Part shown: in pieces, positions 5,319-8,578 of the stretch | Position numbering within the stretch: position 1 is the stretch's first letter | How the letters are laid out: each line of letters begins with the position of its first letter | From: Bacteroidota bacterium | GTDB taxonomy: Bacteria; Bacteroidota; Bacteroidia; Palsa-965 | Assembly (NCBI GenBank): GCA_006218065.1 | Contig: VBWE01000022.1 | Coordinates: forward strand, 1 to 64,000 | DNA length: 64,000 nucleotides | Direction of reading: 5' to 3' | The notes under the pieces: model-generated | The model's input: the letters and a program-made list of their open reading frames with translations, nothing else | Database searches by the model: none | Told to the model about the DNA's origin: nothing | Position numbers and translations under genes: made by a program

Positions 5319-6767
5319 CTATCGCCTCGTTTTTTTCTTCGCTTTCTTTTTCACTGCAGTTTTTTTCGCTTTGGAAGCGGGCTTCGCTTTTTTGTTTTTA
5401 GGTGCGAGTTTCCGCTTTGCTTTGGCTGTTTTTTTGGCCGAAGTTTTTGATTTCTTCTTAACGGGCGCTTTCTTTTTTGATGCGGTTTTCGTTCCCGTCG
5501 GAGAAGAAGCAGGAGCGGTACCTGTTACGGAAGAGGAAGTACCGTCCGGCGTTACCGGTTTCACCGGGGCGCTCTGGCCGGCCAGCAACTGCGACAGGCT
5601 TTTGAAAAGTGCAGCGTTGTTCAGTACATAAAAAGTACCACCGCGGCCGTTCTGGCTGCTGTTGCATTTCTGGTTCGCGTAGGCGTAGCCGGGACAAAGT
5701 CCGCCCTGCTGGTTCATATCGCCGAAAACACAAACCGGTTTCGAACTGTCTTTGGATATGCCGATTTTGGCGTGGTTGTACCCGTCGCCGTCGCCTCCTT
5801 CCAGCCCGATCGTTGTGCCGGCCCAGTTGCCCGTGGTGGCGATTTCTACCGGGCCCGGTTTGCCGAGCGAAGCAGACCAGCAGGAAGGCATGCTTTTGCC
5901 GTCGGTGGAATAAATCTGCGGACTGGCCCACCAGCTGGCTACGCGCATGGGGAGGCTGTTCAGCTTCGCGGAAACCATTTGCCATACCGGCACATTCAGC
6001 GCGGAAGGTTTGGAGATCAGCTGCACCCCGGAAGAAAGCGTTACCATCGTAGCGGCAGTGGAACTGCTTTGTTTGCCGAGTTGATTCACTAACGCCTGGA
6101 TATCGGAAGGACCGCCGTTCTGCACAATTTCCGGCTGCGTGATATCGGTAACCACGCTGGAATTGATGAGCGCTTTGAGGATGGACGAAAGATCGCTTTT
6201 GTTGATTTTCAGCGCGAAAAAATGCTGCGCCACTTCGATATCGTCGTCGCTGCTCACGCACCCGAGCGTATTGCCGTCGTTCATGCGCGGGTTGACGCTG
6301 CTGGCCGAGCCCGGCCATGAAGGTGTGGAAACCTGCATCACGAATCCTTCGCCGGCATCGTTCCAGGCTACCATGCCTTTCGAATGTCCCCAGGGACTAC
6401 TCTGTGTAGCGATCGGGTTTCCGTAAAACTGGTCGTTCCAGAGCACGTAAAAATATCCGGGCGTATTGTACACCTGCCCGAAAGTCGCTCCCAGCGGGTC
6501 GTTGGGCGTGGCGCCCACGCAGCCTGTTCCTTTTACCAGCGCCGGGTTTTTACTGGTAGCAAAAACATATTGCTGGCTGTGGCCCGCAGGATAGGTTTGC
6601 ACGGTTCCGCCGAAAATTCCGGGCGTGCCGGGAGTCGGGTACACGCCGTTGTCGCAGCCCGGGAACGAAGCGCCGTTGAATTTGTAAACGAAAAGCCATT
6701 CAACGGGTTGATTTTTTCCCGCCATGGGTGATGGCGCGGGTAGTGCAGAACCGGTGCGGTTACTCAT
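5319..6767 (-). CDS. DNase II-family nuclease with Lys/Ala-rich histone-like tail
   Basis: This 482-residue protein follows the eukaryotic DNase II layout along its length. It has QPVEWLFVYKF near residue 20, a YVLWNDQ strand near 107, the first catalytic-type H-x-K as GHSKGMV (His128, Lys130), TPSWP, NTLGCVS, and a second H-x-K as NHAKIG (His332, Lys334). CVFGDMNQQGG follows, equivalent to the VGDMNR segment of mammalian DNase II. The family cuts DNA without metal ions, using the paired H-x-K motifs as in phospholipase D. From about residue 425 there is a tail made mostly of Lys, Ala and Pro, resembling histone H1 tails and likely to bind DNA. I see no signal peptide, so the location is unclear. 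Family assignment is from recalled motifs; the tail function is inference. Confidence 0.8.
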   Translation of the reverse strand: MSNRTGSALPAPSPMAGKNQPVEWLFVYKFNGASFPGCDNGVYPTPGTPGIFGGTVQTYPAGHSQQYVFATSKNPALVKGTGCVGATPNDPLGATFGQVYNTPGYFYVLWNDQFYGNPIATQSSPWGHSKGMVAWNDAGEGFVMQVSTPSWPGSASSVNPRMNDGNTLGCVSSDDDIEVAQHFFALKINKSDLSSILKALINSSVVTDITQPEIVQNGGPSDIQALVNQLGKQSSSTAATMVTLSSGVQLISKPSALNVPVWQMVSAKLNSLPMRVASWWASPQIYSTDGKSMPSCWSASLGKPGPVEIATTGNWAGTTIGLEGGDGDGYNHAKIGISKDSSKPVCVFGDMNQQGGLCPGYAYANQKCNSSQNGRGGTFYVLNNAALFKSLSQLLAGQSAPVKPVTPDGTSSSVTGTAPASSPTGTKTASKKKAPVKKKSKTSAKKTAKAKRKLAPKNKKAKPASKAKKTAVKKKAKKKTRR

Positions 6768-6841: not shown

Positions 6842-6895
6842 CTTTGTGCCTTCCTGTCTTCGTGGCAGAGACCACAAAGGCAGAAAGACACAAAG
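6842..6895. repeat. Dispersed CTTTGTG-type intergenic hairpin, divergent copy
   Basis: Two 24-base arms (6842-6865 and 6872-6895) pair with four mismatched positions around a six-base loop. The text (ctttgtgcctt, ttcgtgg, ccacaaagg) matches the repeat family seen nearly intact at 28665, 33228, 34645 and 40323. It lies between the haem-motif gene and the DNase II-like gene. Confidence 0.7.
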
Positions 6896-6926
6896 TCACA
6901 CGAAAATGATACAAGCGGATATCCGT

Positions 6927-8435
6927 TTATTTTCCTTTTGTAACCGTACTGTCCTTCTTCGGCAGAATGGCCTGCGATTTCACCGTGGCATGATGAAAGA
7001 GGAAACTGAAATCGGAATTGTACTTCGTTGCCGCTTTGGGTTTCTGGCCGGCGATAACAGCAAACTTGTGACAATTGATGCAGCTTGCATTGCCCTGGAT
7101 ATACGTTTCCATCGTGGTATTCGCCAGGAACTGCGGGGCATTCACCGTATCGAACGGGGGACCATCCACTTTGCCGCCCCATTGTGAACCGATGAGCCGG
7201 TAGTTTTCCCACACGGTTCCTTTCAGTTTGTCACGCCACACATCATTCACCAGTTCGGTGTAATAATAAACCGGGTACAGGCGAACAACCTGCGTGCCGA
7301 ACGATTTTCCGCCCTGCTCGCCCTGGACTGTGGTGGCGTAATCCTGCGCGTACGGAGGCGTGGGCGACCATTTCACCACTTTGTCGCCGGACTTGGGTGC
7401 AGGCGGCGTATTTACCGGGCAGCCGATGCAATTCGGATCGTAAAACGAGTATTCTTTCCTCGGCGGAGCAGTCTGATCTTTCTGCAGGTTATCCGGAACA
7501 TTGTCGATGTGCTCGAATGTACTCCACACCATAAACTGTCCGAACAACTGTTCCGTTTTGTGAATGATGTGCAGTCCCACCAGCCCGACTTCCGCCTCAA
7601 CAGTCAGCGGCTTTCCGTTGGTCGTGTACGCGGAATCGATGTAGATAATCGCGGGCTGGTGATAATAGGTTGCCATACTATCGGTGCCGCGTATAAGAAT
7701 ACGCCAGGATGCTTTGATTTCGATGGCGCCGGTGGTGTTGTTCTTTTTCGATCCCTGCGGAAGGCTGACCGTATGTCCGAGCGAGTCGATCCACTTTACC
7801 TGGCCCGCCTGCGTATTCAGGTTGTTTTTGTTGATGTATGTAAGCTCATCCGGGTTGATGCGTTCTTCAAAAACCGCGTAGTTCAGGTTTTTATCGATCA
7901 GCGCGTTGCCGTCCGATTCAACCAGCAGCGAAGGATTGTCGAATTTCAGGCTGTCGGCATTGCTGAATTTCGAAGTCATGTACAGGATTTTTTTGTTGGC
8001 TGCGGCGCCGCTGCGCACAGCGGGAGGAACGAATGAAACCGGTTTGGTAAAAACCGTATCCGGATCAGCGTAATGTTCCCAAACGCGCGGCGAAGTATAG
8101 TCTTTGGAAAAAGCGCCGGGTATCGGGTTCCCGTTCCCGTCAGCCGGCCAGTTCAGCGCAACGAAGGACTGCCAGGAAAAAATATCGAAATACGGCTGGC
8201 GCAGCGAATCGAAACCGGCGCGGTAACCTTCGTTGACAAGCGAATCGGGAATGGCGATGATTTTGGGAATCATGCTGCAGAATGAATCTTTTTTCGCGCT
8301 GTCGGGACAGAAACACATATCCTGGATATTCGGCGGAAGCGGCGGAGCAGGAGCAGGGCCGCATTTCTGAAAGATCATCGGTGCCGCGATCATGCCGATC
8401 AGCGCCAGCAGGGAGATGTATTGCCTGTTCATCAT
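6927..8435 (-). CDS. Putative c-type cytochrome-like lipoprotein, single CxxCH
   Basis: About 502 residues from the ATG at 8435. A TTG at 8453 would add six residues. The N-terminus is a hydrophobic signal ending IFQKCGPAP, a possible but imperfect lipobox, followed by a Pro-rich stretch. The region QPYFDIFSWQSFVALNWP near residue 90 and a single haem-binding-type CINCHK near residue 450 recur in a family of large bacterial proteins annotated only as cytochrome c family. One CxxCH suggests one covalent haem, but no distal Met ligand can be assigned with confidence. Many Cys in the first 60 residues may form disulfides. It is transcribed towards the DNase II-like gene with a repeat hairpin between. 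Function unknown. Confidence 0.65.
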   Translation of the reverse strand: MMNRQYISLLALIGMIAAPMIFQKCGPAPAPPLPPNIQDMCFCPDSAKKDSFCSMIPKIIAIPDSLVNEGYRAGFDSLRQPYFDIFSWQSFVALNWPADGNGNPIPGAFSKDYTSPRVWEHYADPDTVFTKPVSFVPPAVRSGAAANKKILYMTSKFSNADSLKFDNPSLLVESDGNALIDKNLNYAVFEERINPDELTYINKNNLNTQAGQVKWIDSLGHTVSLPQGSKKNNTTGAIEIKASWRILIRGTDSMATYYHQPAIIYIDSAYTTNGKPLTVEAEVGLVGLHIIHKTEQLFGQFMVWSTFEHIDNVPDNLQKDQTAPPRKEYSFYDPNCIGCPVNTPPAPKSGDKVVKWSPTPPYAQDYATTVQGEQGGKSFGTQVVRLYPVYYYTELVNDVWRDKLKGTVWENYRLIGSQWGGKVDGPPFDTVNAPQFLANTTMETYIQGNASCINCHKFAVIAGQKPKAATKYNSDFSFLFHHATVKSQAILPKKDSTVTKGK

Positions 8436-8578
8436 GGGAAGCGTTTTGGTCAAAGGAAAGAAAAGGAAACAGAAGCAGATTTCCCGGAGTCCGTTGATAA
8501 GTTTTAATCGACTCCGGCCGGGAAAGAACTGTATCTTTTTTCATGCTTTTCGTTATACAGGCGGCAAATACTGTACTC

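Follow-up and report, generated by a model that had tools for sequence, protein, structure and literature searches.

In DNase II, two HxK motifs together make one metal-free active site. To our knowledge, the animal lysosomal enzyme, a member of the same family as the protein described here, carries these twin motifs, and we know of no Lys/Ala tail on it. According to two reports, animal DNase II prefers acid conditions and is active when EDTA is added or divalent cations are left out (PMC4148230, PMC4349608). DNase II is already known in bacteria, and the Burkholderia enzymes (5i3e/5unb; B. pyrrocinia WP_258285638.1; B. pseudomallei) resemble the protein studied here in being bacterial, in matching Pfam DNase_II and in holding both HxK motifs in register. 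A DNA-binding precedent for such tails comes from the Pseudomonas proteins AlgP and PhaF (PMC9239181), whose disordered C-terminal tails, of the histone H1-like KPAA type, are rich in Lys, Ala and Pro.

Within the window, the whole 64,000-nucleotide stretch of Bacteroidota DNA analysed here, we found a gene whose product, by sequence, is a divergent bacterial DNase II, only distantly related to the classical group. What is new is a tailed, divergent subfamily. The features of the locus are as follows.

5319–6767, minus strand: predicted divergent bacterial DNase II gene with a Lys/Ala tail (482 aa, ATG start; open reading frame and Pfam DNase_II match of 72.2 bits)
5706–6587, minus strand: DNase_II domain match, residues 61–354 (Pfam)
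6378–6386, minus strand: first HxK motif, H128-S-K130, in register with the classical group
5766–5774, minus strand: second HxK motif, H332-A-K334, aligned with the DHAK motif of classical members
5322–5492, minus strand: Lys/Ala-rich C-terminal tail, residues 426–482 (from composition, rarity and a similar tail in the relative L006)
6927–8453, minus strand: lipoprotein-like protein of 508 residues with one CxxCH (C458–H462, bases 7068–7082; open reading frame, a partner by position only)

Family assignment and catalytic motifs

The nuclease matched Pfam DNase_II (PF03265) at 72.2 bits (E 6e-20), above the cut-off of 23 and across 269 of the 326 profile positions, and it was the only such match in the host genome (5.26 Mb, 81 contigs). 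All four close relatives matched the same Pfam family, at 61–77 bits; NCBIfam returned no match for the nuclease. Comparing a profile of the subfamily with a profile of three classical bacterial members using hhalign gave a probability of 98.5% (E 3.9e-15), and it is the Pfam match together with this comparison that links the window to the family, upholding the earlier note's reading of a DNase II homologue. A phmmer search of the PDB with the single sequence weakly matched 5i3e over the first HxK region, with an E-value of 0.0087 that lies just inside the limit of 0.01, and a PDB search with a profile of five relatives found no chain at E 0.1. One of the three classical members, from genome G575, matched 5i3e, which we take to be the B. 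thailandensis enzyme, at 521 bits, and the chain from the window nuclease to a solved structure is sound at the level of sequence. AlphaFold2, given a shallow four-sequence input each time, reached pLDDT values of 35.8 and 32.0.

Both H-x-K motifs that had been noticed in the sequence alone are indeed present, and hhalign pairs them with the classical profile, setting GHSKG opposite GHTKG and NHAK opposite DHAK. H128 and K130 are invariant in all eight aligned proteins, and the H332/K334 motif occurs in seven of the eight, which are all seven that reach it, the eighth (L003) stopping before this point at an in-frame TAG. No close homologue was found to lack the His residues.

A genome scan yielded three close relatives with best-segment identities of 58–66%, from a Chitinophagaceae MAG (L005), a Ferruginibacter MAG (L006) and a Saprospiraceae MAG (L007, cut at the contig end), and the class sample added a fourth (L004, from genome G309). 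Identity is 54–65% inside this five-member subfamily and 20–25% to the classical group; the B. pyrrocinia protein (351 aa), for example, is 23% identical to that of the window, and has neither its insertions nor its Lys/Ala tail. Given this distance from classical DNase II, and with no PDB chain found by the profile search, activity could have changed in the subfamily.

DNase II is rare in the genomes sampled. It was found in 4 of 395 genomes in the class sample and 4 of 395 in the phylum sample, with three of the four common to both, in 1 of 397 from the family of G575 and in 1 of 12 from the window's own order; further samples gave relatives in 1 of 35 and 1 of 42 genomes (overlapping samples), 0 of 1 and 0 of 21. 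Viral contigs contained no relatives of the subfamily profile, of the classical enzyme or of the haem neighbour described below, and tblastn of the window protein against plasmids and phages found nothing. A literature search on DNase II returned no title on a tailed or Bacteroidota DNase II. The gene belongs to a Bacteroidota subfamily of DNase II that is both rare and divergent.

The Lys/Ala-rich tail

As the earlier note had described, the protein ends in a tail dominated by Lys and Ala: the last 57 residues comprise 26 Lys, 11 Ala, 6 Thr, 4 Ser, 3 Pro, 3 Arg, 2 Val, 1 Leu and 1 Asn, with a computed pI of 12.0, and both Lys codons are used. This strongly basic composition is of the AlgP/PhaF type, although AlgP and PhaF have no core domain in common with the window nuclease. 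The tails here are 57–70 residues long, and those of the window and L006 contain no KPAA tandem repeats, whereas the AlgP repeat region spans 154 residues.

Such an ending is exceptional in the host. Among 1,226 greedily called open reading frames from 1.485 Mb in 81 pieces (28% of the genome, window included), only the window gene passes a joint threshold on K/R content and on K-A-P-S-T-R-V content, and its end has the highest K+R fraction of the sample (0.52, versus a median of 0.14). The next highest ends belong to a 110-residue open reading frame at L050 with no Pfam match and to an IS1595-type transposase at L068. On the same count, and for the 28% of the genome sampled, we rejected the idea that such tails are a general feature of this genome.

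A search for the tail in other bacterial homologues, as the earlier note had proposed, gave a divided answer. L006 has a similar tail, 70 residues long and containing 28 Lys and 14 Ala; L005 and L004 lack such a tail, and by eye the stop codon of L004 falls roughly where the L006 extension starts. Two of the five subfamily members thus carry a tail and two do not, the fifth (L007) being truncated by the contig end. In our tree, the tailed L006 pairs with the tail-less L004 (support 97) and the window protein branches apart, which on that topology requires at least two gains or losses; the remaining nodes inside the subfamily have supports of 68 and 78. Because it is present in two of the four members with complete C-termini, the tail is an optional add-on, and the core can do without it. 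Though real, and unusual for the host genome, it is no fixed part of the enzyme.

These observations bear on what the tail might do. The earlier note had seen in it a sign of processive or targeted DNA degradation, an idea weakened by the absence of the tail from two of four complete members; processive cutting through the tail is not supported, and we regard processivity as a guess. The tail is likely to bind DNA or another polyanion non-specifically. By analogy, AlgP indicates that bacterial tails of this type can serve DNA binding and granule placement (PMC9239181).

In a different reading, the partner would be not DNA but another polyanion, for example polyphosphate, RNA or the surface of a granule, and the tail would position the enzyme without helping it to cut. 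AlgP, with its Lys/Ala/Pro tail, is described as associating with and spacing polyphosphate granules (PMC9239181), and an optional tail would suit such a role; however, the core is a nuclease relative, for which DNA is the simplest partner, and the tandem KPAA repeats of AlgP are missing, so that we consider this reading unlikely. We are similarly doubtful of a third reading, in which the tail is low-complexity sequence under almost no selection and without a function of its own, which slippage at repeats and shifts of the stop codon would add and remove. Its presence in only two of four complete members, which takes two or more changes on the tree, is what such drift would produce, but the strongly basic composition recurs in two independent tails, with both Lys codons in use, and in the sampled part of the genome hardly any other end is comparable.

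Cellular place and genomic neighbourhood

The nuclease has no signal peptide. The most hydrophobic 12-residue stretch near its N-terminus has a mean hydropathy of 0.62, where the lipoprotein-like protein next door reaches 2.58, and upstream of the ATG the frame stays open for just six codons. All five subfamily members have a similar short N-terminus without a hydrophobic start; in the relatives, the frame stays open upstream of the chosen ATG for 32 codons (L005), 22 (L004) and 17 (L006 and L007), and by eye these extensions contain no signal peptide. The window enzyme differs in this respect from animal DNase II, since most of the non-bacterial members compared in PMC4148230 have a signal peptide. 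The lack that the earlier note had suspected is borne out, but it is less surprising than the note implied, as the same paper reports B. pseudomallei DNase II to be without one, a likeness between the two bacterial enzymes. As to how the cell protects itself, no inhibitor gene and no export signal was recognised.

The missing signal peptide, together with the rare and patchy distribution and a GmrSD-like gene adjoining the L004 relative, might suggest an antibacterial effector that is injected or released, or an intracellular degrader of invading DNA. We consider this quite improbable. PADLOC returned nothing for the nuclease and, for the two genes beside it, only a weak methyltransferase match, and no partner gene is constant across the nine DNase II loci. 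Type VI sheath PF05943 is absent from the host genome, with a positive E. coli control, and a type VI route is not supported on this one model, which other variants of the machinery may escape.

Upstream of the nuclease, on the same strand and 159 bases away, lies the gene for the 508-residue lipoprotein-like protein, which has a hydrophobic N-terminus, a single CxxCH motif of the c-type-haem kind and no Pfam family. By eye, positions 6850–6902 in the gap between the two genes resemble an imperfect inverted repeat, of which the window contains no second copy at up to 3 mismatches.

A CxxCH lipoprotein-like gene lies directly upstream in at least three of the nine DNase II loci, namely in the window, L005 and L031 (genome G575), and these three genes represent two different families. 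The CxxCH proteins of L005 and L031 share 42% identity, against only 20% between the DNase II proteins of these two loci; the window haem gene has no detectable relation to either, and its grouping with them as one family was not supported. The neighbour is an FKBP-like gene in L006 (by eye), a GmrSD-like gene on the opposite strand in L004 and glutathione synthetase in L002 and L003 (by Pfam and by resemblance, respectively); L007 has no open reading frame of at least 110 aa close by, and the hypothetical genes flanking the B. pyrrocinia gene were left out of the CxxCH search.

Both haem families are widespread on plasmids (28 and 21 records). We inspected 13 plasmid regions, picked non-randomly from the lists, one for DNase II and twelve for the haem families. 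One of the twelve contains both haem families, and genes for GMC, LodA/GoxA, tyrosinase, XDH-like, PLD-like, amidohydrolase and peptidase proteins recur among the annotated partners; the XDH-like protein of G575 is 41% identical to that of a Methylobacterium plasmid. None of the twelve has an annotated DNase II, in plasmid annotation that is itself incomplete. The haem families thus travel with enzymes in general, and we treat a particular association with DNase II as a lead and not as a finding.

On the strength of this lead, the nuclease might work with the haem lipoprotein encoded upstream, in a mobile cluster whose enzymes degrade and oxidise. The three upstream CxxCH genes, the closer resemblance of the L005 and L031 haem proteins than of their nucleases, and the plasmid settings of both families amid oxidases and hydrolases all point this way. 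Yet up to six of the nine loci lack such a gene, the window copy has no detectable relation to the other two, the twelve haem-gene regions are devoid of annotated DNase II, and the haem families were chosen after the loci had been seen, all of which makes a functional partnership rather unlikely in our judgement.

Several other loci showed features of their own. In two genomes of one genus (L002:519–3911 and L003:47–3482), a classical DNase II gene is flanked on one side by glutathione synthetase, whose end it overlaps by a few bases, and on the other by a glutamate-cysteine ligase-like gene, the L003 copy being broken by its in-frame TAG. On Burkholderia pyrrocinia plasmid pBPJTT (L094:4788–17035), DNase II adjoins a tyrosinase, a 980-residue protein with a phosphorylase-superfamily domain, hypothetical genes, a metallophosphoesterase and a ferritin-like gene; PADLOC matched none of the five proteins scanned. 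On Methylobacterium indicum plasmid pVL1_1 (L095:1246–13758), an XDH-like molybdenum enzyme is flanked by both haem families, followed by metallophosphoesterase, PLD-like, phosphoglycerate mutase and DUF2278 genes. Lastly, host contig C1 (L014:15005–18865) encodes a protein of 1,286 residues, possibly polymorphic-toxin-like, in which residues 1110–1175 weakly match a DNA/RNA non-specific endonuclease.

Proposed mechanism and meaning

Taken as a whole, we think it probable that the gene encodes a divergent DNase II phosphodiesterase with a basic tail for holding DNA or another polyanion, which would be cytoplasmic and act mainly at low pH or after lysis. The enzyme would cut DNA without metal ions through its two HxK motifs, forming one active site. 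The tail, probably flexible and strongly basic, would tether it to DNA or another polyanion purely by charge. Produced as a cytoplasmic protein, the nuclease would most likely be tolerated owing to the acid pH optimum of the family: since the family works best at acid pH, the neutral cytosol would protect the cell, the acid preference of the window enzyme itself being suggested by analogy with animal members. We infer that it would act mainly upon a fall in pH or upon release by lysis, on nucleic acid destined for clearance or scavenging.

A broader and quite speculative view, to which we give little credence, is that bacterial DNase II is a spare part of mobile clusters of oxidases, hydrolases and haem lipoproteins, with a DNA-anchoring, histone-like tail repeatedly gained or lost; it would then represent a horizontally assembled DNA-clearing module and not lysosome-like housekeeping.

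Returning to the probable tail-tethered nuclease, the subfamily offers close enzymes with and without the tail, a natural test of the effect of the tail on a nuclease. The haem-gene neighbourhood, in turn, is a possible first handle on the purpose of DNase II in bacteria.
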